NCBI RefSeq assembly: GCF_028291745.1
Contig: NZ_JAQGNQ010000099.1
Coordinates: 1 to 64,000 of the forward strand
Direction: 5' to 3'
Origin: Ramlibacter sp.
GTDB taxonomy: Bacteria > Pseudomonadota > Gammaproteobacteria > Burkholderiales > Burkholderiaceae_C
Length of the DNA stretch: 64,000 nt
The notes under the pieces were generated by a model. It was not told the origin of the DNA. It did not search any database and saw only the letters and a program-made list of their open reading frames with translations. Below are positions 31,563 through 62,517 of the stretch, piece after piece; within the stretch, counting starts at the first letter, position 1; every line of letters begins with the position of its first letter. A program made the translations under genes and the position numbers.

Positions 31563-32603
31563 ATGATCGTAGAGTCCAATGCCTCGCTGCAGCCGTACAA
31601 CACCTTTGGCATTGTCGCCCGTGCGAAGACCCTGGTGCGGGTGAAGGGGCCGGAGGACGTGCATGCCGTGCTGGCTCGGCCGGAACTGGCGGACGAACCC
31701 AAGTTCGTGCTGGGCGGCGGCAGCAACATCGTGCTGACGGGGGACGTGAAGACGCTGGTGCTCAAGGTCGAAGTGGCCGGCCGCAAGGTGCTGGAAGACG
31801 GGCCGCGCGCCACCCTCATCGAATTCGGGGCCGGCGAGAACTGGCACGAGGCCGTCACCTGGACCATCGAGCAGGGCCTGGGCGGCCTGGAGAACCTGGC
31901 GCTGATCCCCGGCACGGTGGGTGCCTCGCCGGTGCAGAACATCGGCGCCTACGGCATCGAACTGCAGGACCGCTTCGATTCGCTGGATGCGATCGACCTG
32001 GTCACCGGCCGCGAATTCACGCTGGATGCGACGCAGTGCGCCTTCGGCTACCGCGACTCGGTGTTCAAGCACTCGCCGGCGCGCGACAGCGACTTCGGGC
32101 TGGCCGGCCGCGCGGTGATCCTGCGCGTGCGCCTGCGCCTGCCGAAGCCCTGGAAGCCGGTGCTCGGCTACGTCGATCTGCAGCGCAAGATGACCGAGAG
32201 CGGCATCGCCCACCCGGACGCCCGCCAGATCTACGACTGGGTCTGTGCGATCCGCGGTGCCAAGCTGCCCGACCCGCGCGTGATCGGCAACGCCGGCAGC
32301 TTCTTCAAGAATCCGACGGTGACCCCGGAGCAGTGCCAGGACATCATCGCGCGCGACCCGGGCATCGTGCATTACCCGATGCCGGACGGCACGATCAAGC
32401 TGGCCGCCGGCTGGCTGATCGACGCCTGCGGCTGGAAGGGCAAGTCGGTCGGCCAGGCGGGGGTCTACGAGAAGCAGGCGCTGGTCCTGGTGAATCGCGG
32501 CGGCGCCACCGGCGGCGAGGTGGTCACGCTGGCGCGGGCGATCCAGACCAGCGTGTATGAGCGCTTCGGGATCCGGCTGGAGCCCGAACCGGTCGTGGTC
32601 TAG
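31563..32603 (+). CDS. murB: UDP-N-acetylenolpyruvoylglucosamine reductase
   Basis: A FAD enzyme that reduces UDP-GlcNAc-enolpyruvate to UDP-MurNAc for peptidoglycan. 346 residues from ATG 31563 (MIVESNASLQPYNTFGI). FAD-binding LGGGSNIVLTGD, IPGTVGASPVQNIGAYG, the catalytic Ser in IGNAGSFFKNP, and the final Glu in the ERFGIRLEPEP segment match E. coli-type (type I) MurB. No clear ribosome-binding site. Its TAG stop shares CTAG with the convergent ABC permease stop. Confidence 0.94.
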   Translation: MIVESNASLQPYNTFGIVARAKTLVRVKGPEDVHAVLARPELADEPKFVLGGGSNIVLTGDVKTLVLKVEVAGRKVLEDGPRATLIEFGAGENWHEAVTWTIEQGLGGLENLALIPGTVGASPVQNIGAYGIELQDRFDSLDAIDLVTGREFTLDATQCAFGYRDSVFKHSPARDSDFGLAGRAVILRVRLRLPKPWKPVLGYVDLQRKMTESGIAHPDARQIYDWVCAIRGAKLPDPRVIGNAGSFFKNPTVTPEQCQDIIARDPGIVHYPMPDGTIKLAAGWLIDACGWKGKSVGQAGVYEKQALVLVNRGGATGGEVVTLARAIQTSVYERFGIRLEPEPVVV

Positions 32604-33808
32604 TTGGCCGGCCGCCGCAGCAGCCAGCCGCTTCCCAGCAGGCAGGCCAGCGCAAACGCGAACAGGAGTCCGGCGCGCGGCAGGATCTCGCCGGCGCTGG
32701 GCGTGCCGAGGAACACCGACTGCATTCCGTCGAGCGCCCATCCCATCGGCGACCAGGCGGAAAACGTCTGCATCGCGGGCGGCATCAACACCCGCGGGAC
32801 CATCACGCCCGCAATCGCACCAAGGACCACGTTGAGCCCGCCGCCCAGCGCCGCCGCGTGCTCGAAGTTGCGCGTGCCACTGGCGATCAGCAAGGCCAGC
32901 CCCACCGCCGCGGTGCTGGTGGCCAGCACCATCAGCAGGAACCAGCCGGGGGCGATCGCCAAGCTCAAGGCATCGCCCCCCAGCCATGGCACCAGCCAGC
33001 GACCCACCAGCAGCATGAAGCCCAGCTGCACCCAATTGAGCACGATGAAGGCCAGCAACTTGCCGCCCAGGATGGCGAAGGACGAAACCTGCTGCGTCGC
33101 CAGGCGGGCCAGCGTGCCCTCGTTGCGTTCCTGGATCAGCACACCGGCGATCGGGATCACGACGAAGAACATGCCGAAGATCAGCCAGGCGGGAACGCTT
33201 TGCTGCACGGCGGTCATGCGCCGCCCGGACTCGATCTCGTACAGGTAGCGCACGGCGACACCGCTGTCGGCCGCGAGCAGGTCGCCGCCCGAGGCGCTAT
33301 CGAGCAGCACGCCAGCGAAGGGCCCGGCCTCCGCCGCCGCCCGCTTCATCTGGGCCTGCAGCAACGAGAAGCTCAATTCGGCCCGCAGCCGCGCGGCGGC
33401 GGCCGGTGCGACGCGGTTGCCCAGCCACATTTCCAGCTGGCGGCTGTCGGGGCGGCCGCTGGCCGGGTCCAGCAGCGGTGCGCGCACGACGACGCCGGCT
33501 TCCACCTGGCGCGTCGCCAGCGCCTGCTGCAAGGCCTGCCTGCTGGCGAAGCGAGGACCGGGATGCCGCGCCTGCCACTCGCGCGCCCATTGCGTGGCGA
33601 AGGGCGTCGTGTCTTCCTGCACCCAGCCGGCCACCGGCAAGTCCACCTTCGCGGTGAGCGTGTTCTTCAGGGTGAAGGACATCACCAGCACGAAGATCGC
33701 CGGCATCAGGAACAGGGCCGACAGGCCGTGCAGGTTGCGCGAGAGCAGGCGCCACTCCTTGCAGGCGACGGCAAGGATCTGCGCGCGGATGGCGGAGCAA
33801 GGGAACAT
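32600..33808 (-). CDS. ABC-2 type transporter permease
   Basis: 402 residues with the ABC2_membrane_3 layout: one N-terminal helix (about 27-47), a large extracytoplasmic domain (about 50-180), then five to six helices in the C-terminal half. It contains LIQERNEGTLARLATQQVSS, the coupling-helix-like segment of this family (compare YhhJ/NatB). The ATG at 33808 is 4 bp past the ATPase stop. As the last gene of the polyene-like operon it probably forms the exporter with the ATPase; cargo unknown. The stop overlaps that of murB on the opposite strand. Confidence 0.82.
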   Translation of the reverse strand: MFPCSAIRAQILAVACKEWRLLSRNLHGLSALFLMPAIFVLVMSFTLKNTLTAKVDLPVAGWVQEDTTPFATQWAREWQARHPGPRFASRQALQQALATRQVEAGVVVRAPLLDPASGRPDSRQLEMWLGNRVAPAAAARLRAELSFSLLQAQMKRAAAEAGPFAGVLLDSASGGDLLAADSGVAVRYLYEIESGRRMTAVQQSVPAWLIFGMFFVVIPIAGVLIQERNEGTLARLATQQVSSFAILGGKLLAFIVLNWVQLGFMLLVGRWLVPWLGGDALSLAIAPGWFLLMVLATSTAAVGLALLIASGTRNFEHAAALGGGLNVVLGAIAGVMVPRVLMPPAMQTFSAWSPMGWALDGMQSVFLGTPSAGEILPRAGLLFAFALACLLGSGWLLRRPAN

Positions 33809-33812
33809 CACG

Positions 33813-34553
33813 CTAGTCGCGCAGGGAGCGGTGGGTGTAGTGCATGAACAGATCTTCGAGATTCGCGTGCGGCGGCCTTTCGCCGTTGCCGCGCAGCAGC
33901 GTGGCGAGGTCGCCCACCGCCAGCACCTGGCCATGATCCAGCAGGACGATGTCCGAGCAGACGGCGCTCACTTCCTCCATGTAGTGCGTGGCATACAGCA
34001 CCGCAGTGCCGCCCGCTACCAGTTCCCGCACGCGATCGAGCAGGAAGGCACGCGACTGCGGATCCACGCCCACCGTCGGCTCGTCGAGCAGCAGCACCTG
34101 CGGCTGCTGCAGCAGGGCGATGGCCAGGTTCAGGCGGCGGCGCACGCCACCCGAGCAATGGCGCGCCGGTCGCTGCGCGAATTCGCCGAGCTGGCAACTC
34201 GCGATGGCGCCGGCTACGCGCCGCGCCGATTCGGCGCGCGGCGTGTCGAGCATCGCGGCGAAGAAGGCCAGGTTCTCGCGGCAGCTCAGGTCGGGATAGA
34301 ACGCCGCTTCCTGCGGCACCCAGGCCACGCGGCGGCGGTCGGCAGCGGCGATCTCGATGTGGCCTTGCTGCGGCTGGCGCAGTCCGGCCAGCAGGCCGAT
34401 CAAGGTGGACTTGCCCGAGCCGTTCGGTCCCAGCAGGCCCACGGCCTGGCCGGCGCGCAGGCGCAGGTCGACGCCCTGCAGCGCCGCTGCTTCCTGCCGC
34501 GGGTACCGGTACACCAGGCCGGTGGCCAGCACCGCCGGGGGGGCTTCGCTCAT
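33813..34553 (-). CDS. ABC transporter ATP-binding protein
   Basis: 246 residues with Walker A GPNGSGKST, Q-loop VPQEAAFYPDL, signature CSGGVRRRLNLA (SGGVR in place of the usual SGGQ/SGGM), Walker B LLLDEPTVGVD and H-loop ATHYMEE. It is of the drug/lipid exporter subclass (NatA/CcmA-like). The ATG overlaps the glycosyltransferase stop by 4 bp (ATGA), so it is translationally coupled to the polyene-like operon and likely exports its product or a related lipid. Confidence 0.88.
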   Translation of the reverse strand: MSEAPPAVLATGLVYRYPRQEAAALQGVDLRLRAGQAVGLLGPNGSGKSTLIGLLAGLRQPQQGHIEIAAADRRRVAWVPQEAAFYPDLSCRENLAFFAAMLDTPRAESARRVAGAIASCQLGEFAQRPARHCSGGVRRRLNLAIALLQQPQVLLLDEPTVGVDPQSRAFLLDRVRELVAGGTAVLYATHYMEEVSAVCSDIVLLDHGQVLAVGDLATLLRGNGERPPHANLEDLFMHYTHRSLRD

Positions 34554-35398
34554 TGCAGCGAGGTATCCCTCGCCGGCAGCACGTGGGCCGCTGCGCCGAT
34601 GGCCGAGACGCCCGCCGCCTTGCGCCCGGGCAGCACGGTTGCCGGCTGCAGGCTGCGCCACAGGCCCACGGGCGCCATGCCGCTGCGCAGCAGGCGACCG
34701 CCGACCATCAGCACGATCTTGGTGATGTCCCAAACCGGGCGGAAGTGGCTGCGGCGGGCGTTGGCCGGGTAGCGCCCGGGGATCGCCAGCGCCAGCGTCG
34801 AATGGCCATGCCGGGCCGCCTCGATCAGCACCTCGCTCTCGAAGGTGAAGCGGCTGCCGCGCACCTTGGGCCCGAGCGCGAGTCGCATCACTTCCGCCGG
34901 ATAAGCGCGAAAGCCCGATTGCGAATCGGCGATCGGGTGGCCGGCCGCCCACGAGATCCAGAAGCAGGCAAAGCGGTTGGCACGCCAGCGCGCCAGCGGG
35001 AACTGCGAGCGATCGTGCAGGCGCGAGCCGATCACGATGCGGCGCGGGTTGCGCCGCCAGGCGGCCAGCAGCAACGGCGCATCGGCCGGATCGTGCTGGC
35101 CGTCGCCGTCCATGGCGATCACGCAGGCGGCGTGCTGCGCCAGCGCGTGCGTGAACGCCGTGCGCAGGCTCGCTTCCTTGCCGCGGTTGTGGGCGTGGAC
35201 CAGCAGCGTGACGGGCAGCCCGCTCAGTTGTTCGGCGGTGCCGTCGGTTGAGCCGTCGTCCACGACGATCACGTTGGGCGATTGCGCCAGCGCCTCCTGC
35301 GCGAGGGCGCGAATGGTGGCCGCCTCCTGGTAGGCCGGGATCGCGATCCACACGCCTTGCCAAACCCCTGTCGGGTCGTGTTGTTGTGCGGTTTCCAT
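34550..35398 (-). CDS. Family 2 glycosyltransferase
   Basis: 282 residues with a GT-A fold: IAIPAYQEAATIRALAQEAL, nucleotide-site VVDDGSTDGT, metal-binding IAMDGDGQHDPAD and the acceptor region SQSGFRAYP. It resembles polyprenyl-phosphate mannosyltransferase/GT2 enzymes seen in aryl-polyene clusters, but is a separate protein, not fused to an acyltransferase. No membrane helices at the C-terminus. Start at ATG 35398, 5 bp after the ketoreductase stop. The acceptor is presumably the polyene or its lipid anchor. Confidence 0.82.
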   Translation of the reverse strand: METAQQHDPTGVWQGVWIAIPAYQEAATIRALAQEALAQSPNVIVVDDGSTDGTAEQLSGLPVTLLVHAHNRGKEASLRTAFTHALAQHAACVIAMDGDGQHDPADAPLLLAAWRRNPRRIVIGSRLHDRSQFPLARWRANRFACFWISWAAGHPIADSQSGFRAYPAEVMRLALGPKVRGSRFTFESEVLIEAARHGHSTLALAIPGRYPANARRSHFRPVWDITKIVLMVGGRLLRSGMAPVGLWRSLQPATVLPGRKAAGVSAIGAAAHVLPARDTSLQ

Positions 35399-35403
35399 GG
35401 TGT

Positions 35404-36138
35404 TCAGTACAGCCCTCCGTTGACACCGATCTCCTGGCCGGTGATGTAGCTTGCGGCATCGGACGCCAGGAACGCGACCAGCGCCGCCACCTCCTCCGGC
35501 CGCCCGGCGCGGCCGGCGGGCACCAGCGCCTTGATGCGTTCCGGCGGGAAGGCCTGCTGCGCCATGCCGGTGGCGATCACGCCCGGCGACACCGTGTTGA
35601 CCGTCACGCCGCGGTTCGCCACTTCCTGCGCCAGCGACTTCGCAGCCGCGTGCACGCCCGCCTTGGCGGCCGCGTAATTGGCCTGGCCCCGATTGCCGGC
35701 TTGGCCCGCCACCGAACCGATGTTGACGATGCGCCCCCAGCGCTGGCGCACCATCGGCATCACCAGCGGCTGCGTGACGCGAAAGAAGCCGTTCAGGTTG
35801 GCGTCGATCACACCGAGCCACTGCGCCTGCGGCATCGCCACCAGCAAGGCGTCGTGATGGAAGCCGGCGTTGTTCACCAGCACGTCGATCGCGCCGGCTG
35901 CGAGCAGCGGCTGCAGCGCCGCCTGCACGGCGGCAGCGTCGGCGAGATCGAAAGCCACCGCTTCGGCACTGGCGCCGCTCGCCTGGAACTCGTGCACCAG
36001 CGCTTGGGCGCGCTCGCTGTTGCGGTGCGCGTGAACGATCACGTGCAGCCCCTGCGCACTGAGCGCACGGCAGATCGCCGCGCCGATTTCGCCGCTGCCG
36101 CCGGTGACCAGCGCCCTGCGCTTGCCCGCCGCGTTCAT
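35404..36138 (-). CDS. fabG: 3-oxoacyl-ACP reductase (FabG/ApeQ-type ketoreductase)
   Basis: A 244-residue short-chain dehydrogenase. Cofactor motif TGGSGEIGAAI (about 13-23), NNAG (about 88), catalytic Ser in NIGSVAG, YAAAK (Tyr and Lys), and PGVIATGM. It reduces the beta-keto group on ACP-bound chains. The ATG overlaps the hotdog gene by 4 bp. In this operon it should serve polyene elongation rather than bulk fatty acid synthesis (inference). Confidence 0.9.
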   Translation of the reverse strand: MNAAGKRRALVTGGSGEIGAAICRALSAQGLHVIVHAHRNSERAQALVHEFQASGASAEAVAFDLADAAAVQAALQPLLAAGAIDVLVNNAGFHHDALLVAMPQAQWLGVIDANLNGFFRVTQPLVMPMVRQRWGRIVNIGSVAGQAGNRGQANYAAAKAGVHAAAKSLAQEVANRGVTVNTVSPGVIATGMAQQAFPPERIKALVPAGRAGRPEEVAALVAFLASDAASYITGQEIGVNGGLY

Positions 36139-36566
36139 GGCGCTTGCCCGCCCAGAACGACCACCAGCCGGCCGGAAGCGACCAGCGTGCCACTCGTGCC
36201 GACCTCGAAGCGGTACATGCAGCCGGACTCGGAGCGACCCAGCAACTCGGCGCGAATCGACAGCGCCTCGCCCTCGGACGGAATGGCGACCGCGCCGAGT
36301 TGCACGTCGACCAGCGTGGCCAGCATGCCGGCGCGCGCCTGGCCGGATGCGGCCAGCAGCGCGCCGTGCACCGCCGTCGCCTGCGCCGCGTACTCGGTGG
36401 CGACGATGGCGGGCACGCGCCGGTCGCGCGCCAGCGGATGGTCGGCGCCGGGCAAGGCACTGGTGCAGGCGATGGACGCGGCACTCCATTCGGTCACCGC
36501 ATCGAGCAGGCACATGGCCCCGGCATGCGGCACCAGTCGCTCGATTCCGGCGCGATCGATTCTCAT
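36135..36566 (-). CDS. Hotdog-fold dehydratase/thioesterase-like protein (ApeP-like)
   Basis: 143 residues (MRIDRAGIERLVPHAGAMCL), with PHAGAMCLLDAV near the N-terminus and VPAIVATEYAAQATAVHGAL, typical of the 3-hydroxylacyl-ACP dehydratase-like proteins of aryl-polyene clusters (ApeP) that pair with an ApeI-type partner. Overlaps both neighbours by 4 bp (ATGA). It probably dehydrates beta-hydroxyacyl-ACP together with the dehydratase domain fused to the ligase. Confidence 0.72.
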   Translation of the reverse strand: MRIDRAGIERLVPHAGAMCLLDAVTEWSAASIACTSALPGADHPLARDRRVPAIVATEYAAQATAVHGALLAASGQARAGMLATLVDVQLGAVAIPSEGEALSIRAELLGRSESGCMYRFEVGTSGTLVASGRLVVVLGGQAP

Positions 36567-37378
36567 GCGCTGCCGTCCTCGCGCCACAGGCTCAGGCTCT
36601 GCGAGCCGAAGGAAAAATGCAGCGCGCTGCCGCCGGCGGATTCCAGCAAACCCAGTGCGGCGAGCGCGCGCGCACTGCTGTTGCCGTGCCAGTCGCGCGG
36701 CAGCCAGTCCGGCAGCGGTGACGCCGGCGCTTGCGAAGCCGCTTGCAGCAGCATCCGGAAGCGACCCAGGGCCGGGGCCGACGCATGCGCCTCCCCCGCG
36801 CTGATCACGAAGGCGGCAGCCGTGCCGTGCACCACGGGCAGCACTTCGGCCAGCGGCGCGGTCATGGCCGGATCGCACACCGCCAGCAGCACCGGCCGGC
36901 CGCTGGCCACCGCGTCGGTGACCGCGCACAACAGGCCGCAGGCAAAGCTCTCGAGGCCCAGGCTCACCACCGTGGCCGCCTGCCGGTTCTGCCAGCCGAT
37001 GGAGAAATAGCCCGAGGGGGCGTTGTGGACCGAATTCGTGAACAGCATCGGCGAAAGCTGCCGCGTGGTGGCCAGCGTCTGCAGCATCTGCTGGCACACC
37101 TCGCCGGTGCCTTCGTCGGTGGCGAACACGGACCGCAATTCGGCGGGATCGAACGGCGAGTCTGCAAGAGCCTGGGCGACGCAGGCGAGCGTCAGGCGCA
37201 CGGCCTGGCTGGCGCGGCGCCGTTCGGCCGCCGGCAACTGCGGCGGGGCCGGCAGCGCCAGCGGTGTGTCGGCGGCAATGCACTGCTCGCCGCGGCAGGC
37301 CAGGCGCAGGTCGACCAAGGACGTGAGCCCCGGCGCCAGGACACCGGCAGCGTGCAAGCGGAAGGACAGCGGCTTCAC
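36563..37378 (-). CDS. Beta-ketoacyl synthase-like chain-length factor (ApeC-like)
   Basis: 271 residues of the Ketoacyl-synt_2 (PF13723) type, matching the partner subunit of type II ketosynthases. Seen: LFTNSVHNAPSGYFSIGWQN and VSLGLESFACGLLCAV, with Ala-Cys-Gly in place of a functional active-site context. It should dimerise with the adjacent ketosynthase and set chain length. GTG start at 37378, 2 bp after the KS stop; 4-bp overlap with the next gene. Confidence 0.78.
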   Translation of the reverse strand: MKPLSFRLHAAGVLAPGLTSLVDLRLACRGEQCIAADTPLALPAPPQLPAAERRRASQAVRLTLACVAQALADSPFDPAELRSVFATDEGTGEVCQQMLQTLATTRQLSPMLFTNSVHNAPSGYFSIGWQNRQAATVVSLGLESFACGLLCAVTDAVASGRPVLLAVCDPAMTAPLAEVLPVVHGTAAAFVISAGEAHASAPALGRFRMLLQAASQAPASPLPDWLPRDWHGNSSARALAALGLLESAGGSALHFSFGSQSLSLWREDGSA

Positions 37379-37380
37379 GT

Positions 37381-38592
37381 TCAGGCCCCCGCGCTGAAAA
37401 TGAGCGAACAGTTGCTGCCACCGAAACCGAAGTTGTTGCTCATGGCATGGCGCAGCGCGGCGGGGCGCGCGGTTCGCACCAGGTCGACCGGCAGCGAAAC
37501 GTCCGGCGTGTCCAGGTTGGCGGAGGGCGGCAGGGTCTGGCGCTCGACGGCCGCAGCCGTGATGATCGCCTCGACGATGCCGGCTGCACCCAGCGTGTGG
37601 CCGGTGATGCCCTTGGTGGAGGACACCGGCACGCCGGCAGCGCCGAACACCGCGGCGAGTGCGGCCGCTTCGGAGCGATCGTTGGCCGGCGTCGCGGTGC
37701 CGTGCGCATTGACCCAGCCGATGTCGCCAGCCTGCAGGCCGGCCTCGGCCAGCGCCGCGCGCATCGCATCCTGTGCGCCCAGGCCTTCGGGGTGCGGCGT
37801 CGACATGTGCCAGGCGTCGCTCGACTCGCCACCGCCGCTCACCGAGACCGCGGCAGGAGTCGCTTCGACCAGCATGAAGCCGGCCGCCTCGCCGATCGAA
37901 ATGCCTTTGCGGCCGGCGTCGAACGGCCGGCAGATTTCCGGCGACAGCAGTTGCAGCGCGTGGAATCCGTGCAAGGTGGAGAGGCACAGGCTGTCGACGC
38001 CGCCGACCACTGCCGCGTCGATCACGCCGGCGGCGATCCAGCGTTGCGCCAGCAGGAACACTTTCGCGCTCGAGGAGCAGGCCGTGGAGACCGTCGCCAT
38101 GGGGCCCTGCAGGCCCAGCGTCTCGGCGCTGAAACGGCACAGCGCGTCGACCGCATGCGTGCGCCGATAGTCGAATGCGGCCGGCCATTGGCCGTTCGCG
38201 TGGCGCTGCGCGTACGCGACTTCGGTGCTGCGGATGCCGGACGTGCTGGTGCCCAGGATCACGCCGATGCGATGCGCGCCATGGCGCGTGCGCGCGGTCG
38301 CGACGGCCCGGGCGAAAGCGCTGTCCTGGAGTGCCAGCCAGGCGAGCCGGTGATTGCGGCAGTCCCAGGCGCCGACATGCGCCGCGAGACTGGCGTCATC
38401 GACGCCGGGCGCGGCGCCCGTCCAACAGGGCAGGTCGCACCAGTCCAGATCGTTGGGGCGCAGGCCGCTGCGGCCCTGGGCCACGGCCTCCCAAAGGGCG
38501 GTGACGCCGTGGCCGGCAGGGTGAACGACTGTGGTCGCCGAGATTCCGAGCACGAGTTTGCGTCCGGGGTGATTCAGGCCGCCGGCCGGCAC
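37381..38592 (-). CDS. Beta-ketoacyl-ACP synthase (ApeO-like ketosynthase)
   Basis: 403 residues of the KAS I/II thiolase fold. The nucleophile is in VSTACSSSAKV, with the two His in VNAHGTATPAND and TKGITGHTLGAAG, and the glycine-rich SNNFGFGGSNCS near the C-terminus. All catalytic residues are intact. The GTG at 38592 overlaps the methyltransferase by 19 bp; another GTG 13 codons later (38553) would place the start closer to the family norm. It condenses malonyl-ACP onto the growing chain with the chain-length factor. Confidence 0.88.
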   Translation of the reverse strand: MPAGGLNHPGRKLVLGISATTVVHPAGHGVTALWEAVAQGRSGLRPNDLDWCDLPCWTGAAPGVDDASLAAHVGAWDCRNHRLAWLALQDSAFARAVATARTRHGAHRIGVILGTSTSGIRSTEVAYAQRHANGQWPAAFDYRRTHAVDALCRFSAETLGLQGPMATVSTACSSSAKVFLLAQRWIAAGVIDAAVVGGVDSLCLSTLHGFHALQLLSPEICRPFDAGRKGISIGEAAGFMLVEATPAAVSVSGGGESSDAWHMSTPHPEGLGAQDAMRAALAEAGLQAGDIGWVNAHGTATPANDRSEAAALAAVFGAAGVPVSSTKGITGHTLGAAGIVEAIITAAAVERQTLPPSANLDTPDVSLPVDLVRTARPAALRHAMSNNFGFGGSNCSLIFSAGA

Positions 38593-39644
38593 TCGAGCAG
38601 CGTGTGATAGCCCCCGATGCCGTCAGTCTGGCGGGTGATCGTGAGGCCGGCGCGTTCGACCAGCGCGAGGAACACGGGGGAGTCGTACATCTGGCTGTTG
38701 CCGTTGGCCACGCAGCTGAAATACAGCGAGGTCTGCTGCAGGCTGAAGGCGGCCGCTTCGAAGCGCTGCCGGTCCCAGAACAATTCCAGGATCCAGATGC
38801 GGCCGTCCGGCGCCAGCGCCGCGGCGGCCTTGCGCAGGATGGCGACCACCTGGTCCTCGGAGAAGCAGTCCAGGAACTGGCTCATCCAGATCAGGTCGTA
38901 GCCGGCGGGCAGCGGCGCCTGCTCATCGAGCAGGTCGGTCGGATGCGAACGCACCCGCTGCGCGAAGCCCGCCTGCTCCAGCCGGGCACGGGCGCGCGCA
39001 AGCTGCGGCGGCAGGTCCACCAGGCCCACCTGCAATTGCGGCAGGCGCTCGAGGCAGTACTGCGCCCATTTGCCGGTGTTGCAGCCGACATCGAGCAAGC
39101 GGGTCGGCGCCGTCTGCGCCAACAGCTGGCACACCGCGGGAAAGGCGCGGTCGGAATAGAAATGATCGAAGGCGTGCCAGCTCGTGCGCGCCGGCTCGGG
39201 CATCACCGACAGCCCCTCGTAGAGCGTGGCCCAGGGACCGAGCTCGTGCAGGCCGGCGGGCCGGCCTTCCTGCAGCGAGGCATCGAGGTGGGCGGCCGCC
39301 TGGTAGCAGACGTCGCGCGTGAAATCAAAATTGACGCGCGTCATCTCGTCATCGAGCAGGAAGCGCCCGAGCTTGCCCAGCCGAAAGCGGCCCTCGGCGC
39401 GCCACACGATGTGCAGGCCGAGCCCGGCTTCGAGCAGCACGCGTGCTGCGTACGGTGCGAGGCCGGTGGACTGCTGCACCTCCTCGAGCGTGCAGCCCTC
39501 GGGGCCGCCTTGCGCCAGCGCCGCGAGCACGCCCCGGTCGCGCATGGCGGCCGTTGCCTGGAAGGCGAGCGGCGCGAAAGCCAGCCACTGGGCCGCGCTG
39601 ACGGCCTCCATGGCGGAGAGGGGATCCTTGTCGTACAGGGGCAT
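38574..39644 (-). CDS. SAM-dependent methyltransferase (O-methyltransferase type)
   Basis: 356 residues: an N-terminal winged-helix dimerisation domain (about 20-100; TLEEVQQSTGLAPYAARVLL) and a class I SAM domain with LLDVGCNTGKWAQYCL, QVGLVDLPPQLARAR and YDLIWMSQFLDCFSE. The layout is that of small-molecule O-methyltransferases (Methyltransf_2). In aryl-polyene clusters such enzymes methylate the aryl ring; here the acceptor is unknown. It ends inside the ketosynthase start. Confidence 0.8.
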   Translation of the reverse strand: MPLYDKDPLSAMEAVSAAQWLAFAPLAFQATAAMRDRGVLAALAQGGPEGCTLEEVQQSTGLAPYAARVLLEAGLGLHIVWRAEGRFRLGKLGRFLLDDEMTRVNFDFTRDVCYQAAAHLDASLQEGRPAGLHELGPWATLYEGLSVMPEPARTSWHAFDHFYSDRAFPAVCQLLAQTAPTRLLDVGCNTGKWAQYCLERLPQLQVGLVDLPPQLARARARLEQAGFAQRVRSHPTDLLDEQAPLPAGYDLIWMSQFLDCFSEDQVVAILRKAAAALAPDGRIWILELFWDRQRFEAAAFSLQQTSLYFSCVANGNSQMYDSPVFLALVERAGLTITRQTDGIGGYHTLLECRPAA

Positions 39645-39662
39645 GGCGGGGTATTCGGGATC

Positions 39663-40235
39663 TCAGGGAAGGATGCGGGTGGTGGTGCGTTCGCCCTGAC
39701 GATCGGTGACGATCAGGACGCGTAGCTGGCCGTCGGTGCCTTGCAGCTGCACGGTGTCGATCTGGCGCGAGCCCGCGCTGGCGCGCGGCTGCAATTGCGC
39801 CGACCAGACGTGCTCGTCGCCATTGACGACGATCGTGAAATCGCGTTGCAGGGCGAGGAGGTCGCCGGCGATCGCGCGGCGCGTGGCGTCGGCCAGCGCC
39901 TGCAAGGCAGGGGTCGAGCGAAAGAAGATCTGCTTGCGGCCGGCGCCGCCGGGGCCTTCCCATTCGAGCCGGTCCTCCAGCATGCGCCAGGTTTCCTGCC
40001 GCGGCTCCTCGACGCGCTTTTCCAGCGACTGCGGGGTGACGTGCAGCGTTCCGCGCGTGGTGACCGGCGCCGAGAGCCACGGCGACTCGCGCGTTTCCTC
40101 ATAACGGGCGTCGGGCCTGGGGGCGGCCTGCAGCAAGGCCTGCAACTGCGCCACCGTGAGCGCGTGGGCGAGGCCGGCCACGCCAGCCAGCGCGAGCAAG
40201 CACAGGACGCGCACGCCATGCAGCAGCGGTTTCAT
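39663..40235 (-). CDS. LolA-related outer-membrane carrier protein
   Basis: 190 residues with a signal peptide (VRVLCLLALAGVAGLAHA) and a LolA-like half-barrel (QLQALLQAAPRPDARYEETR, then GTLHVTPQSLEKRVEEPR). The same family (ApeL-like) recurs in aryl-polyene clusters and is thought to carry the lipidic product across the periplasm. The ATG at 40235 overlaps the acyltransferase by 4 bp. Gap to the methyltransferase: 18 bp. Confidence 0.72.
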   Translation of the reverse strand: MKPLLHGVRVLCLLALAGVAGLAHALTVAQLQALLQAAPRPDARYEETRESPWLSAPVTTRGTLHVTPQSLEKRVEEPRQETWRMLEDRLEWEGPGGAGRKQIFFRSTPALQALADATRRAIAGDLLALQRDFTIVVNGDEHVWSAQLQPRASAGSRQIDTVQLQGTDGQLRVLIVTDRQGERTTTRILP

Positions 40236-41119
40236 GCGCGCATCCCTTGTTCCGTCCAGAACGGATAGAAGTTGAACCAGTTGAGCGGATAGCGCCGCGC
40301 GAACGTTTCGAGCAAGCCCGCGTAGCGGTCGATCATCGGCTGCAACGCTGTCCCACGACTGTCGCGCGCGGCAGCCGCACCGAATTCGACGAACTCGATG
40401 CGATAGCGGTTGCGGCCTTCGTGCAGGCCGAAGCACATCACCACGGGGGCCGCGCTGCGCGCCGCCAGCACGTGCGGCGCCACCGGCAGACCAACGAGGC
40501 GGCCGAAGAAGTGGGTGGTCAGCGAAGCCGCCTTGCCGTCGACGCGGTCCGCGAGCAAGCCGAGGATCTCGCCGCGCTCGAGCGCCGCGTGCGCCTTGAG
40601 GTAGCTGTCGGGCCGGCCGATCTCGATCAGGCTTGGACCTTCGGCGATGCCGGCCAGGCGCCGCAGTCGCGCGCGCGGGTCCTGGCGCATCATGATGCTG
40701 ATCGGCCGGCCGTCCATGGAGCGGTGCGCCAGCATCATCAGGTCGAAGCTGCCCAGGTGCGAACCCAGGAGCACGCAACCCTTGCCTTGCGCCAGCAGCC
40801 GGTCGACCATGGGCAGGCCCACGATCTCGACTTCGAAACGGTGGAAGTCGCCGGCCGCCATGTAGACCCGGTCGAGCAAGGTCGTGGCGAAGGTGTAGAT
40901 GTGCCGGAACACCTGCGGCCAACGGGCGGGGCGGCCGTGCACCGCCTGCAGGAAGTCGGCCGAGGCACGCCGGGCGACGCCGTCGGTGAGCACGAAGTAG
41001 AGGGTGATCGGAAACAGCAGGCCGCGGCACACCGTGCGCCCGCAGGTGCGCGCCAGCCAGACGATCAGCGCGATCAGCCAGGGGCTGCCCCGTTCGGCCT
41101 TGGCCGTCCAGGCGCTCAC
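40232..41119 (-). CDS. Lysophospholipid/lipid A-type acyltransferase (HtrB/LpxL family)
   Basis: 295 residues with one N-terminal hydrophobic segment (about 14-45) and a LpxL-type acyltransferase core: CVLLGSHLGSFDLMML (HxxxxD: His-Leu-Gly-Ser-Phe-Asp), DPRARLRRLAG, GEILGLLADRVDGK, FFGRLVGLPVAPHVLA. GTG start at 41119 overlapping the ligase stop as GTGA. It likely acylates the product's lipid anchor at the inner membrane. Confidence 0.78.
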   Translation of the reverse strand: MSAWTAKAERGSPWLIALIVWLARTCGRTVCRGLLFPITLYFVLTDGVARRASADFLQAVHGRPARWPQVFRHIYTFATTLLDRVYMAAGDFHRFEVEIVGLPMVDRLLAQGKGCVLLGSHLGSFDLMMLAHRSMDGRPISIMMRQDPRARLRRLAGIAEGPSLIEIGRPDSYLKAHAALERGEILGLLADRVDGKAASLTTHFFGRLVGLPVAPHVLAARSAAPVVMCFGLHEGRNRYRIEFVEFGAAAARDSRGTALQPMIDRYAGLLETFARRYPLNWFNFYPFWTEQGMRA

Positions 41120-42822
41120 GGCGAAGCCTCCGCCAGCGGCGCCAGCACCACGCTGCCTTCGGCGATCGCCTGGTGCACGCCGTCGCGCAGCGCGCTGACG
41201 CGGAAGGACAGCGATCCCTCGCGTTGCGTGAACTGCACGCGCGCCGACTCCTCGGGCAACAGGGGCGAGGCGAACTTCACGCGCGGCAGGCGCGCCACGT
41301 CGCGGCCGGTGCGCTCCCGCACGCCGGCGAGCACGTGGTCGAGGATCAGCACGCCCGGCACGACCGGCCGGCCGGGAAAGTGCCCGGGCAGCGAAGGATG
41401 GCTGGCCGCGACGCGGAAGTGATGGTCGCTGCAGGCCGCGGGGGCAGCGGCGCCCGTCGTGCGCTGTGCCGCATGGAGCGCCTCCAGCGCCGCGCGTGGC
41501 AGCTTGCCGTTGGCGTCGCGCGGCAGCCGCTCCACCTGCAGCCAGCTGCGCGGCAGGAAGACGACGTCGATGCGCTCGCGCAGCCAGCGTTCGGCGGCGG
41601 CACGATCGAGGTGGCCGGCGTGGATCAGCACCAGTCGCTCGGTCGGCGCGTCCTCGGCCGGCAGGTAGAACACGCCGTCCTCCAGGCCGGGCAGATCCTG
41701 CAGCAGCAGGTTGAGGCCGCTCAGCGAGGCGCGCCGGCCGCCGATCTTCACCATGTCTGCGTGCCGCCCGAGCAGGGTGAAGCGGCCGTCGCCGCCGATT
41801 TCCACCCGGTCGGCCAACGTGTGCGGCGACGGAAAGTGCGTGCCGCGGGCCTGCGTGCCGTCGGCGCCGACTTCGAGACGGACATCGCCGATCGGCTGCC
41901 AGCTCGCTTGCGTGGCAGTGCGGCGCGTGGCGATCACGCCCGTTTCGGTGGAGCCGAAGATCTCCACCACCGGCGCGCTCACCAGCGCCTCGACCTGCGC
42001 GGCCAGGGTGGCTGCGAGCGGCATGGTGGAGACGAGGGCGAGCCGGCAATCCGGCAAGGTTTCGCCGGCACGGGCCAGCGCTCGCAGGTGCAGTGGCGTG
42101 GCGATCCAGGCGGTCGGTCCGCCGCATTGTTCGACGGCCGTGCGCACGTCCAGGGGCAACAGGGGCTTGCGATCCAGCACCGCCAGGCCGGTCGCCAGCG
42201 GCAGCATCACGGAGCTCTCGAAGCCGAACATGTGCTGCGGCGGCACGCTGCAGACCAGGGCCCGCAAGGCGGCGAGGCCACCGTGCACTTCCGTGTCCAG
42301 GCGGGCGGCCAGGGCGCGCGCGCCCTGTGTCAACTGCCCCCAGGTCTTGGCGTGCGGCTGCGGTGCTCCGGTGCTGCCGGACGTGTACAGCCGCACGCAG
42401 GTCTGCCGTGCATCCGGGGTCCACGCCAGCTCGCGCGGCGAGGGCAGGTGGCGTGGCACCTGGGGCAGATAGACGAGACCACCCGTGCGCGCGCCGGAGA
42501 CCGGCTGCAACAGCGTCTCATCGTCCACCACCACCATCGCGCCGGGCGTGCCCCCGAGCAGCGCCACGAGGTCGGCCAGGCCGCCGGAAGGCGGCAGCAG
42601 TTGCAGGCAGCCGCGGCGCAGCGCGGCCAGGGCGGTGATGAGAAAACCCGCGCGAGTGGCGCACAGGTTGCAAACGGGGGTGTCGGGATGCAGGCGGTCC
42701 GCGAGTTCGCGGGCGGCTGCGTGGATCTCGTGCCACGTCCAGTCGTGCGCGCCGCCGATGACGGCGGGGCGGTGCAGGAGCGAGGGGGACAGCAGTGCGG
42801 CCATCGTCTTGGGGTCGCTCAC
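41116..42822 (-). CDS. Acyl-AMP ligase fused to FabA/FabZ-like dehydratase (ApeH-ApeI-like)
   Basis: 568 residues. Residues about 1-445 are an adenylate-forming ligase with a P-loop VRLYTSGSTGAPQ, VEIFGSTETGVIATR and the C-terminal Lys in PRDANGKLPRAAL. The last about 115 residues form a hotdog dehydratase with SHPSLPGHFPGRPVVPGVL, matching FabA/FabZ and ApeI (His in GHFPG). In aryl-polyene clusters these are usually two genes. The ligase would activate an aryl or acyl starter for loading on ACP, and the dehydratase would work with the ApeP-like protein. The GTG overlaps the COG4648 gene (GTGA). Confidence 0.82.
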   Translation of the reverse strand: MSDPKTMAALLSPSLLHRPAVIGGAHDWTWHEIHAAARELADRLHPDTPVCNLCATRAGFLITALAALRRGCLQLLPPSGGLADLVALLGGTPGAMVVVDDETLLQPVSGARTGGLVYLPQVPRHLPSPRELAWTPDARQTCVRLYTSGSTGAPQPHAKTWGQLTQGARALAARLDTEVHGGLAALRALVCSVPPQHMFGFESSVMLPLATGLAVLDRKPLLPLDVRTAVEQCGGPTAWIATPLHLRALARAGETLPDCRLALVSTMPLAATLAAQVEALVSAPVVEIFGSTETGVIATRRTATQASWQPIGDVRLEVGADGTQARGTHFPSPHTLADRVEIGGDGRFTLLGRHADMVKIGGRRASLSGLNLLLQDLPGLEDGVFYLPAEDAPTERLVLIHAGHLDRAAAERWLRERIDVVFLPRSWLQVERLPRDANGKLPRAALEALHAAQRTTGAAAPAACSDHHFRVAASHPSLPGHFPGRPVVPGVLILDHVLAGVRERTGRDVARLPRVKFASPLLPEESARVQFTQREGSLSFRVSALRDGVHQAIAEGSVVLAPLAEASP

Positions 42823-43220
42823 GGGGCCTTGCCTCGTGCGGGTCGCCAGACCTGCAGCGTATCCCTGAACTGCTGCAGCACGCCGGGAAAGCGATGGGCG
42901 GGGAAGAGGTGGGGTCGCAGCCAGTGCTCACCCAGGAAGAGGAGGGCCGTGCCGCTCCAGACCAGCATGCCGGACCACGCAGCCGCGCGTGGCGCGCCCA
43001 GGCCAAGCAGGGCGGCCAGGACGAAGTAGGCGCACCACACCGCGGTGAGGCGACGGGTATACAAAACGAGCTGCGGCGGCAAGCCCGGTTCGCTGACCCG
43101 GGCAATGCGCGTGATCAGGGCTTCGTGCCCCGGCCGCAAGGTGCGGCCGAAGAACAGGGCCAGCCATCCCGTCATCAGGAAGGAAAGCGCGCGCCACGCG
43201 ATGCCGACATCGAACGCCAC
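42819..43220 (-). CDS. COG4648-family membrane protein
   Basis: 133 residues with about three to four hydrophobic stretches and the family segment FGRTLRPGHEALITRIAR. Proteins of this group occur in aryl-polyene and related clusters next to the ACP; function unknown, possibly a membrane scaffold. Start at ATG 43220, 15 bp after the ACP stop. Confidence 0.7.
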   Translation of the reverse strand: MAFDVGIAWRALSFLMTGWLALFFGRTLRPGHEALITRIARVSEPGLPPQLVLYTRRLTAVWCAYFVLAALLGLGAPRAAAWSGMLVWSGTALLFLGEHWLRPHLFPAHRFPGVLQQFRDTLQVWRPARGKAP

Positions 43221-43235
43221 GCGCCATCCCCCCGA

Positions 43236-43523
43236 TCAGCCCTGCGCCCGAGCGGTCCCGAGGTAGGCGGCCAGGCTTTCCAGCGAGCCGAAGATGGCGT
43301 CGTTCTCGGGGTTGTCCGCGGCCAGCTTGACGCCATAACGCTGCTGGATGATCAGCGAGATCTCCAGCAGGTCGAGCGAGTCGAGGTCGAGGCCGCCGCC
43401 GAACAGCGGGGCCTTCAGGTCGACCTGGCTGGCGTCGACGTCTTCGAGGTGGAGTCCCTCGACGAGCAGCACGGCGAGTTCTCTCGCCTCGATCGTCGGG
43501 CGATCGCCGAGGGTGACGCTCAT
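43236..43523 (-). CDS. Acyl carrier protein
   Basis: 95 residues, four-helix ACP with the phosphopantetheine serine in GLDLDSLDLLEIS (Ser49). The N-terminus (SVTLGDRPTIEARELAVLL) is slightly longer than in AcpP. It carries the growing polyene or acyl chain. It is the only ACP in the operon. Its ATG overlaps the lipoprotein stop by 4 bp. Confidence 0.88.
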   Translation of the reverse strand: MSVTLGDRPTIEARELAVLLVEGLHLEDVDASQVDLKAPLFGGGLDLDSLDLLEISLIIQQRYGVKLAADNPENDAIFGSLESLAAYLGTARAQG

Positions 43524-43912
43524 GACGCGGACAACTGCGCGTTGATGCCGCGCGTCAGGTTCTGGATCCAGCCGTTGTAGTTCTTGTGGATCGTGCCGCC
43601 CTTCTCGTCCAGGTTGACGCTGGAGCGGTATTGCACGCTGTACGACTTGGGCGAATAGGGGATCGCGACCACGGCCGTGTGGTTGCGCAGTTGCAGCGTG
43701 CCCAGCAGCATGCCGGGGCCTTCTTCCTTCATCTGCCAGCCGAGCGCGGAGCCGGCGCGGACGATGGCGCCGCGGACTTGTTCGTTGCTCAGGGCCTTGC
43801 CCGAGGCGGTGGCGACGGGGGCTTCGCTGACGTTCATGATCGGCGCGGCGACGCAGCCAGCGAGGGCGGCGGCGGCGAGCACAACGGTGGCCAGCTTGAC
43901 GGACACGGACAT
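43520..43912 (-). CDS. Small lipoprotein, first gene of the polyene-like operon
   Basis: 130 residues. A signal peptide ends in the lipobox LAGC (about 17-20), giving an outer- or inner-membrane lipoprotein. The rest (SNEQVRGAIVRAGSALGWQM, GMLLGTLQLRNHTAVVAIPY, SVQYRSSVNLDEKG) has no family I recognise. AGGAGAA at 8 bp fixes the start at 43912; the frame is open 65 codons further upstream but without lipobox placement. Overlaps the ACP gene by 4 bp, so it belongs to the operon. Confidence 0.75.
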   Translation of the reverse strand: MSVSVKLATVVLAAAALAGCVAAPIMNVSEAPVATASGKALSNEQVRGAIVRAGSALGWQMKEEGPGMLLGTLQLRNHTAVVAIPYSPKSYSVQYRSSVNLDEKGGTIHKNYNGWIQNLTRGINAQLSAS

Positions 43913-44687: not shown

Positions 44688-45524
44688 TCACTGGCCGGCG
44701 ACGCTGCTGCCGCGGCCGTAGTAGGCCTGCACGGTGTCCCAGGCCACGGTCTGCAGGTGCCGCGCCACGGCGGGCTCGAGGCCGGCGGTGTACGAGGAGC
44801 CCACCGGCGAGCGCTTGAACAGCGACGCATACACCGTGGCCGCGGCCAGGTAGGTGCCGGCGAGGCTGGGATGGCGCTTGTCCGATGCGTAGAGATTCAG
44901 GTCCGGCCGCTGCGCCACCGAGCGGGCGAAGGCCAGGCCGGCGGGGATCACGAAGGCGTCGTTGTTGTTGCCCTCGCGCGTGTACGCCTCGGCGAGTTGC
45001 GCCGTCATCTCCGGCTTGTCCTGGTAGGCCCACGACATGAAGAACACCGGCTTGGCGCCATGGCGCCGGAACGTGTCGGCATTGAGCTTCGCGTTCCTGA
45101 CGAACACCGGCGCGAGCTGCGGATGGATCGGGCACTGGCTGCAGTCCATCACGATCGCCACGTCGAACAGGCGATCGAGCTTGTTGAAGGTGATGTTGTT
45201 GTTGGCGTCGAACGAATAGCTGCCGATCGCATTCGGCCGGAAGTACGACTCCACGTCGTGCCAATCGAAGCCCGAGCCGCTGATGGTCACCGAGGTGCCG
45301 CGATGGCGGAAGCCCGGCATGCCGGCCGCGATGAACTGACCGACGTGGCCGTGCATGCTGTTGTTGTAGTAGAAAAAGCTGTTGCCGATCCAGATGGCGG
45401 AGGCCGGATCGGTGATGCCCGCGTCGGTGAGCTTGGGTCGTGTGGCGGTCTGCGCCTGGACGGCGCCAGCCGCGAGCAGGAGGGATAGGACGAAGCCGGT
45501 GAGAAAACGAGAGAGCTGGGACAT
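44688..45524 (-). CDS. Secreted SGNH-hydrolase-like protein
   Basis: 278 residues with a signal peptide (LSLLLAAGAVQAQ). The GDSL-like block IWIGNSFFYYNNSMHGH and the C-terminal SDKRHPSLAGTYLAA (Asp-x-x-His) suggest an SGNH-type esterase. GAGGAG upstream sets the start at 45524. The substrate is unknown. The upstream gap holds an inverted repeat. Confidence 0.6.
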   Translation of the reverse strand: MSQLSRFLTGFVLSLLLAAGAVQAQTATRPKLTDAGITDPASAIWIGNSFFYYNNSMHGHVGQFIAAGMPGFRHRGTSVTISGSGFDWHDVESYFRPNAIGSYSFDANNNITFNKLDRLFDVAIVMDCSQCPIHPQLAPVFVRNAKLNADTFRRHGAKPVFFMSWAYQDKPEMTAQLAEAYTREGNNNDAFVIPAGLAFARSVAQRPDLNLYASDKRHPSLAGTYLAAATVYASLFKRSPVGSSYTAGLEPAVARHLQTVAWDTVQAYYGRGSSVAGQ

Positions 45525-61794: not shown

Positions 61795-61870
<76 letters not shown>

Positions 61871-61912
61871 CAAGTGTCGAGAGGCCAATCGAAAGATTCG
61901 TCCAAAGGTTTT

Positions 61913-61988
61913 GACCCTATCGTCTAGAGGCCTAGGACATCACCCTTTCACGGTGAGTACCGGGGTTCGAATCCCCGTAGGGTCGCCA
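61913..61988 (+). tRNA. tRNA-Glu (TTC)
   Basis: 76-nt cloverleaf with encoded CCA. Acceptor GACCCTA pairs with TAGGGTC; anticodon arm TCACC-CTTTCAC-GGTGA gives TTC. T-loop TTCGAAT. Confidence 0.95.
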
Positions 61989-62057
61989 AGACAACGCAAG
62001 TTGAACTGGCAACAAGACGGCAGCACTTGGCCCGCGAGGGCAGACGCTGTACCGCGT

Positions 62058-62134
62058 GGAGTGGTAGTTCAGTTGGTTAGAATACCGGCCTGTCACGCCG
62101 GGGGTCGCGGGTTCGAGTCCCGTCCACTCCGCCA
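62058..62134 (+). tRNA. tRNA-Asp (GTC)
   Basis: 77-nt cloverleaf with encoded CCA. Acceptor GGAGTGG pairs with CCACTCC; anticodon arm CCGGC-CTGTCAC-GCCGG gives GTC. T-loop TTCGAGT. Confidence 0.95.
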
Positions 62135-62149
62135 GTCATTCGAAAACGG

Positions 62150-62177
62150 ACACGGGCTTCGGCCCGTGTTTCTTTTA
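62150..62177 (+). terminator. Intrinsic terminator after the first tRNA set
   Basis: ACACGGGC (62150-62157), loop TTCG, GCCCGTGT (62162-62169), then TTCTTTT. A strong hairpin, so the second set may need its own promoter. Confidence 0.85.
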
Positions 62178-62193
62178 GCGAGGACGAAGGCCC

Positions 62194-62269
62194 AGGGGTA
62201 TAGCGCAGCTCGGAGAGCGCTTGCATGGCATGCAAGATGTCAGCGGTTAGCTCCCGCTTACCTCCACCA
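62194..62269 (+). pseudogene. Decayed tRNA-Ala (GGC) copy
   Basis: 76 nt aligning end to end with the tRNA-Ala at 61795. Anticodon arm is identical (GGC), and CCA is kept. Differences: acceptor 5' base is A, mismatching C72; D-stem GCGC no longer matches GAGC; T-loop is TTAGCTC where the functional copy has TTCGATC, losing the conserved C56. Such changes should prevent normal folding and modification, so I call it a pseudogene. Confidence 0.75.
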
Positions 62270-62296
62270 GGTTTTCGTTGAGTTCGTCCAGGTTGT

Positions 62297-62372
62297 GACC
62301 CTATCGTCTAGAGGCCTAGGACATCACCCTTTCACGGTGAGTACCGGGGTTCGAATCCCCGTAGGGTCGCCA
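62297..62372 (+). tRNA. tRNA-Glu (TTC), second copy
   Basis: Same 76-nt sequence as the copy at 61913, with an identical anticodon arm and encoded CCA. Flanking sequence downstream is also similar (ACAACGCAAGTTG), showing segmental duplication. Confidence 0.95.
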
Positions 62373-62440
62373 CACAACGCAAGTTGTACCGGCAGCAAGG
62401 CCGCAGCACTTGGCCCGCAAGGGCAGACGCTGCACCGCGT

Positions 62441-62517
62441 GGAGTGGTAGTTCAGTTGGTTAGAATACCGGCCTGTCACGCCGGGGGTCGCGGGTTCGAG
62501 TCCCGTCCACTCCGCCA
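62441..62517 (+). tRNA. tRNA-Asp (GTC), second copy
   Basis: Same 77-nt sequence as the copy at 62058, with encoded CCA. Preceded by the same spacer type (GCAGCACTTGGCCCGC). Confidence 0.95.

Follow-up and report, generated by a model that had tools for sequence, protein, structure and literature searches.

An aryl polyene-type operon of Ramlibacter that lacks an MMPL exporter gene and carries an ABC-2 transporter pair

A 64,000-nucleotide stretch from Ramlibacter sp. (RefSeq assembly GCF_028291745.1, contig NZ_JAQGNQ010000099.1, positions 1 to 64,000), referred to here as the window, contains an operon of the aryl polyene (APE) type. It consists of 14 open reading frames (ORFs), all on the minus strand, from the first start codon at 43912 to the last stop codon at 32600. 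The operon has no gene for an MMPL exporter and ends in a pair of ABC-2 transporter genes. A sequence-only reading had already described 14 genes forming an operon at 32600-43912, and all of these ORFs were recovered. It had also reported 4-bp overlaps at most junctions; there is such an overlap at 7 of the 13 junctions and a gap of 2-20 bp at the other six. The overlap between g05 and g06 is counted only if g06 starts at the ATG at 40235 (an alternative start is at 40214). In order of transcription, the genes are as follows.

43520..43912, minus strand: g01, ApeA-like lipoprotein, 130 aa, lipobox LAGC (E. coli ApeA, 36% identity over 129 aa, 1e-28)
43236..43523, minus strand: g02, acyl carrier protein (ACP) of the ApeE type with a DSL motif (PF00550; PRK09184, 96.7 bits, cut-off 70; ApeE, 39%)
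42819..43220, minus strand: g03, small membrane protein corresponding to the C-terminal part of ApeG/COG4648 (ApeG, 35% over 85 aa, 4e-12)
41116..42822, minus strand: g04, AMP-ligase fused to a hotdog dehydratase, ApeH-ApeI (PF00501; ApeH, 7e-22, and ApeI, 3e-7, on different halves)
40232..41119, minus strand: g05, LpxL-like acyltransferase equivalent to the C-terminal half of ApeJ (PF03279; ApeJ residues 248-549, 3e-27)
39663..40235, minus strand: g06, LolA-like periplasmic carrier, ApeL (PF19574, LolA_3; ApeL, 2e-5)
38574..39644, minus strand: g07, methyltransferase of the ApeB/FlxJ type, in the position held by MMPL in other clusters (ApeB, 47% over 351 aa, full length)
37381..38553, minus strand: g08, ketosynthase (KS), ApeO, with intact Cys-His-His (PRK09185, 485 bits, cut-off 407; ApeO, 4e-79; best PDB matches 7f28_B and 6qsp_A)
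36563..37378, minus strand: g09, chain-length factor (CLF), ApeC (PF13723; ApeC, 6e-10; sole PDB matches are chains 6qsp_B and 7f28_A)
36135..36566, minus strand: g10, second hotdog dehydratase of the ApeP type, the weakest assignment (PDB 6qsr_B, 3e-4; located between CLF and ketoreductase)
35404..36138, minus strand: g11, ketoreductase (KR) of the ApeQ type (ApeQ, 42%, 3e-59; FlxB, 262.5 bits, below the cut-off of 340)
34550..35398, minus strand: g12, GT2 glycosyltransferase equivalent to the N-terminal half of ApeJ (PF00535; ApeJ residues 9-226, 2e-20)
33813..34553, minus strand: g13, ABC-2 exporter ATPase, a relative of the ATPase from dialkylresorcinol (DAR) clusters (PF00005; trees, neighbourhoods)
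32600..33808, minus strand: g14, ABC-2 exporter permease, a relative of the DAR-cluster permease (PF12698/PF01061)

The twelve functions named in the sequence-only reading come from 11 genes, the ligase and one dehydratase being fused. They hold by Pfam and NCBIfam and upon comparison with the 18 ape proteins of E. coli CFT073, for g10 only weakly. Three genes had been passed over: the lipoprotein (43520-43912), the ABC-2 ATPase (33813-34553) and the permease (32600-33808). For g03, there was no match in Pfam, NCBIfam or the PDB, and g10 has neither a Pfam match nor a BLASTP match to E. coli ApeP. In g04, the ligase half is related to ApeH and has a match, below the cut-off, to a 4-coumarate ligase family. 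The nearest NCBI model for g07 is FlxJ (450.6 bits, below the cut-off of 560), and its best PDB matches are 3dp7 and SibL. We take SibL to be a ring C-methyltransferase, 7f28 and 6qsp to be KS-CLF complexes of APE synthesis (ApeO/ApeC from Acinetobacter and Xenorhabdus), and 6qsr_B to be ApeP.

The functional motifs are in place in the window: the ACP serine, the KS Cys-His-His, the ligase motifs (g04 contains YTSGSTGAP, LPRDANGK and GHFPGRP), the dehydratase GHFP and the KR Tyr-Lys. The DSL motif of the ACP is present in 8/8 sequences and the EYAAQ motif of g10 is kept in 9/9. The lipobox pattern was found in 3/7 of the g01-type sequences checked, including that of the window. According to the available text of PMC8041823, ApeQ differs from FabG by a lid that is 2-3 residues shorter, by Leu185 in place of Phe, and by an arginine patch including Arg148. 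In our own alignment, the lid of g11 has a net deficit of 2 residues relative to the FabG encoded in the same genome (a 3-residue gap and a small insertion); by the same count, the lid of E. coli ApeQ is 1 residue shorter. At the Arg148 position, g11 has Arg where this FabG has Pro.

The complete gene order was found in five other genomes (loci L082-L086), and the covered parts of three more agree. When compared with the orthologs from the nearest relative (G040, on contigs L089 and L157), dN/dS is 0.09-0.59 over the 14 genes and is highest for the lipoprotein. With 0.20 for the ATPase and 0.10 for the permease, the ABC genes are under constraint as strong as that on the core enzymes. Because of the kept order and these dN/dS values, the operon cannot be attributed to chance. 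In the GC-rich loci of relatives, ORFs were assessed by homology to stop-to-stop ORFs. The ligase-dehydratase fusion is variable within this operon type, the two halves being in different reading frames in four loci (L082, L084, L086 and L087). In a KS tree, the operon lineage forms a clade with support 100/100. The ligase has its closest named match (79%) in a Ramlibacter metagenome-assembled genome (MAG). A sister relation to the clusters of gammaproteobacterial thiotrophs was considered. It had support of 96/83 in a 65-row KS tree and of 88/41 in a 39-row tree, and a grouping with the Burkholderiales rows remained acceptable by the approximately unbiased (AU) test (p 0.345). Because of the weaker tree and the AU test, we make no such claim.

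The reference for comparison was the APE cluster of E. coli CFT073, which has 18 genes (apeA-R), with functions taken from the available text of PMC8253772. Twelve of the 14 operon genes have an ape counterpart. Eleven of these were detected by BLASTP (2e-5 or better) and match A, E, G, H plus I, J (in two halves), L, B, O, C and Q; the twelfth, g10, is assigned to P by a weak PDB match and by its position. The two clusters differ in that H and I are fused in the operon, J is split into two genes, and the ABC-2 pair (g13/g14), which has no counterpart in the E. coli cluster, is added. No separate counterpart was detected by BLASTP for E. coli D, F, K, M (RND/MMPL), N and R. The sequence-only reading had matched the operon to the APE core (ApeC/O, ApeI/P and ApeQ types), and the gene-by-gene comparison supports this, the link between g10 and ApeP being weak. 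A KS-CLF pair of the ApeO/ApeC kind is accompanied by an ACP, an ApeH-type ligase, two hotdog dehydratases, an ApeQ-type reductase, a LolA-like carrier, a GT2 protein and an acyltransferase. What is lacking is a dedicated RND/MMPL exporter gene in the cluster. The MMPL exporter is not a core feature of assembly, and its absence therefore marks a variant. The operon is a genuine APE-type cluster, of a lineage that has no MMPL gene in the operon and has an ABC-2 pair.

It had also been proposed that starter and product may differ from those of classical aryl polyenes, because several genes were missing. This is mostly not borne out, while the operon does lack MMPL, and this sets it apart. The E. 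coli cluster, like the operon, has no ammonia-lyase. In twelve MMPL-type loci from the genus, likewise, no more than one ACP was matched, and ApeR was not; across the 56 loci fetched by means of the ligase (several of which are short), only 3 had an ApeR match. The absence of an ammonia-lyase, a second ACP and ApeR is thus ordinary, the first being shared by the E. coli cluster and the other two by related Burkholderiales loci, mostly so in the case of ApeR. E. coli ApeN (DUF3261/LolB-like), used as query, had no match in the operon, nor in the 12 MMPL-type loci. ApeR, which had been called KASIII-like, is of the KAS II type (its E. coli sequence reaches 779 bits with PRK09116 and 355 bits with FabF).

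The distribution of the MMPL gene was analyzed across relatives. An APE-type KS was found (at 1e-85) in 21 of 60 genomes from the genus, with at least 71% identity in eight and with 51-58% in 13. The latter 13 genomes gave 14 loci, 12 of which (L158-L167, L169 and L170) span the region from the acyltransferase to the KS. All 12 have MMPL between these two genes (in pieces in L162 and L164), and LolA was matched in ten. The other two loci, L168 and L171, were left out; the contig of L171 starts inside the KS. L168 (G032:C34:6500-26499) is a second APE-type KS-CLF in a genome that already holds a full MMPL-type cluster, and the 20 kb fetched gave no match to an acyltransferase, LolA or MMPL. In 9/9 genomes with the operon type (eight from the genus and G105 from another genus), the region from acyltransferase to KS contains the methyltransferase and lacks MMPL. 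At the 3' end, both ABC genes are present in 7/7 covered cases (not counting L087, whose contig ends inside the ATPase gene, nor L088 and L089, which end earlier; the 3' part from G040 is L157). MMPL and the ABC pair of the operon were never seen together in the genus loci.

The xanthomonadin-like clusters of betaproteobacteria (Azoarcus arcM-V, Variovorax; PMC3949708) and the MMPL-type clusters of the genus share with the operon the order ACP, membrane protein, ligase, dehydratase, acyltransferase, LolA and the order KS, CLF, dehydratase, KR. After LolA, they have an exporter, a polysaccharide deacetylase and mostly another methyltransferase, while the operon has the ApeB/FlxJ-type methyltransferase there and the ABC pair at its end. 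A betaproteobacterial MAG (L014, 8240-19342) has the gene order of the window from the lipoprotein to the GT2 gene, with MMPL in the position of the methyltransferase, and no ABC match was found in the 2 kb after its GT2 gene. This is an apparent intermediate arrangement. An ApeB/FlxJ-type methyltransferase was detected (at 1e-60) in 15 of 399 genomes from the order, including that of the window. The 14 others (38-49% identity) are surrounded by canonical ape genes, and 13 of these loci have an ApeQ or ApeR match, so that the methyltransferase belongs with APE synthesis. In the stretches fetched for these 14 loci, there was no match to either ABC gene.

The closest relatives of the ABC pair outside the operon type are found in DAR clusters. 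Among 299 genomes from the family, the permease has 11 matches (at 1e-30): its own, those in G050 (72%) and G105 (66%), and eight at 34-40% identity. All eight are from clusters with the order DarA-DarB-DarG-DarH-ABC-ABC-ACP-KS (names assigned by NCBIfam on L093). The dar cluster of Azoarcus also codes for an ABC ATPase (darF) and a permease (darI) (PMC3949708, Table 1). The operon thus resembles DAR clusters (darA-K) in having a related ATPase and permease, and differs from them in that the operon loci have no match to DarA, DarB, DarG or DarH. In trees, both the ATPase and the permease of the operon are separated from their DAR counterparts, in clades of their own with long branches. For this reason, the operon pair is considered a relative of the DAR pairs, not a recent copy. 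One stretch from a Piscirickettsiaceae MAG (L036, 1-17651) has an ABC pair, DarA/B/G/H, an ApeB/FlxJ methyltransferase, an ApeA lipoprotein, GT2 and the APE core plus MMPL; this is likely a polyene-DAR hybrid cluster.

A biosynthetic route can be proposed on the basis of homology, motifs and conserved synteny; we infer which substrates are used, in what order the late steps occur, and that the ABC pair acts in transport. The ligase part of g04 would charge g02, the only ACP, with a hydroxyaryl acid, and the KS/CLF pair (g08/g09) would extend this starter with malonyl units. The KR (g11) and the two dehydratases (the C-terminal half of g04, and g10) would form the conjugated polyene. The ring would be C-methylated by g07, which is our best guess because g07 is 47% identical to ApeB and its relatives in the PDB start with 3dp7 and SibL. 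The polyene would be linked to a lipid anchor by the acyltransferase (g05) and the GT2 protein (g12), which together correspond to ApeJ. Transport across the inner membrane would fall to g13/g14, the ABC-2 pair, in place of an MMPL/RND pump, and the LolA protein (g06) would bring the product to the outer membrane. We consider it probable, with a fair margin of doubt, that the operon is of the APE type and uses another exporter, and that it makes a ring-methylated hydroxyaryl polyene-lipid, which the ABC pair exports and passes to LolA. With about even confidence at best, we extend this to Ramlibacter and its kin, where an ATP-driven, DAR-related ABC-2 exporter may replace the MMPL/RND exporter for an APE-type lipid, with LolA being kept and the starter coming from a source other than those searched. 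In the literature on this ABC arrangement or on APE in Ramlibacter (open-licence texts, mostly their titles), no account of an exporter swap was recognised.

Several observations weigh against this reading, some concerning export and some the starter. As to export, an APE might be made while the ABC pair is otherwise engaged (anchor flipping, self-protection) and an unlinked MMPL protein exports the product. The rest of the genome has 16 MMPL-family matches outside the operon. The Pfam model separates APE MMPLs poorly: the MMPL from the APE cluster of G064 reaches only 31 bits, so that an unlinked APE MMPL may exist. MMPL and a DAR-type ABC pair are found side by side in three DAR-bearing stretches (L036, L042 and L093), so that polyene export need not be the role of the ABC pair in such clusters, where it may serve another cargo. 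The permease had no match in a profile search of the PDB, and AlphaFold modelled it with moderate confidence (pLDDT 65.7). Upon a Foldseek search, insect ABCH-9C (solved with ceramide) came first, followed by ABCG exporters, with poor superposition. On the other side, LolA is kept although MMPL is gone from all nine loci, and the ABC pair is kept in all seven covered and is under strong constraint. We thus regard export by an unlinked MMPL protein as rather unlikely. An ABC pair that resembles that of DAR clusters might also point to a polyene-DAR ester, flexirubin-like or arcuflavin-like, with DAR genes elsewhere in the genome; in Azoarcus, the arcuflavin genes are indeed distributed over unlinked loci (PMC3949708). 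The DarB ketosynthase (StlD/DarB) was, however, not found over cut-off in any of the six operon genomes searched (G000, which is that of the window, G005, G020, G023, G050 and G105), whereas the same search was positive in 3/3 DAR-bearing genomes (G064, G341 and G269). A flexirubin-like hybrid was rejected upon this absence of DarB, and a polyene-DAR ester is scarcely credible. With flexirubin clusters, the operon shares FlxJ as the nearest NCBI model of g07 and FlxB as one of the top reductase models, neither match reaching its cut-off; it differs by the lack of DarB and of a tyrosine ammonia-lyase (none in G000, and only HutH in five other genomes).

For the aromatic starter, which is predicted indirectly from the methyltransferase and the ligase, the searches made found no source. 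Ammonia-lyase searches covered G000 and five of the other operon genomes. A whole-genome search of G000 for PF00221 (aromatic/histidine ammonia-lyase) gave no match, and the other five genomes code for one PF00221 lyase each, all of which are HutH by NCBIfam over cut-off. HutU is adjacent upstream in four of the five (the upstream ORF in L113 was outside the scan). HutH of G000 was either lost or is missing from the draft assembly. No FkbO/Hyg5 chorismatase was found in G000. For the XanB2 type, there was no TIGR04444 match at E 1e-3 in this one genome, the sensitivity for XanB2 being uncalibrated; beside other APE clusters, only other genes or matchless ORFs were found, hence there is no local positive control. 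For the E. coli APE cluster, the predicted substrate is 4-hydroxybenzoate supplied by UbiC (available text of PMC8253772). UbiC (PF04345) was not found in seven genomes from the family of the window at 1e-3. At E 10, it was not found in G000, G005, G050 and G105, nor in four Polaromonas genomes, while the same search detected it in Cupriavidus and Paraburkholderia. The aryl acid that lacks its UbiC source in this family is also required for ubiquinone. In the available part of the literature on APE lipid structure and 4-hydroxybenzoate sources (PMC5069965), anchor and starter are not settled.

With no aryl-acid-making enzyme found in the searches made, the product might be a polyene or an unusual fatty acid built on a non-aromatic starter. 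The KR gate is compatible with this: Leu, the ApeQ residue, is also present in the KR for non-aryl ishigamide (available text of PMC8041823) and is therefore no proof of an aryl substrate, and g11 has Val, which is neither the Leu of ApeQ nor the Phe of FabG. A non-aromatic product is nevertheless improbable, given a full-length ring methyltransferase of the ApeB/FlxJ type, which argues for the classical hydroxyaryl head group, and a ligase that is a relative of ApeH, with a sub-threshold match to a 4-coumarate ligase family. A further possibility is that the cluster is silent or decaying. Caenimonas aquaedulcis DR4-4T, a presumed carrier of the operon, has an arylpolyene cluster according to antiSMASH and is white on R2A (available text of PMC9628874), which speaks against strong pigment under those conditions. 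Ramlibacter aurantiacus AW1T is orange and also has an arylpolyene call, the cluster type not being distinguished (available text of PMC9731981). All 14 frames are open in the window, the catalytic motifs are present, and the dN/dS values indicate constraint, so that a silent or decaying cluster is very improbable.

Two further features of the window lie outside the operon. The gene upstream of it (44691-45524) matches DUF4886 weakly, without reaching the family cut-off. At 61795-62517, there are five tRNA genes, including two tandem Glu(ttc)/Asp(gtc) pairs, as if the pair had been duplicated.

The proposed swap of the exporter is a modest surprise and is testable; the cluster is of the known APE kind and differs in its predicted exporter. 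It is normal that ammonia-lyase, a second ACP or ApeR are missing from an APE operon, and an antiSMASH arylpolyene call does not guarantee a yellow colony. The exit of APE lipids from the inner membrane has only been proposed in the available text of PMC8253772. A lineage that has LolA and an ABC-2 pair and no MMPL gene in the operon is a natural test of this step. If the ABC pair does export the lipid, this would be a natural exporter swap, which separates the roles of ApeM and ApeL.

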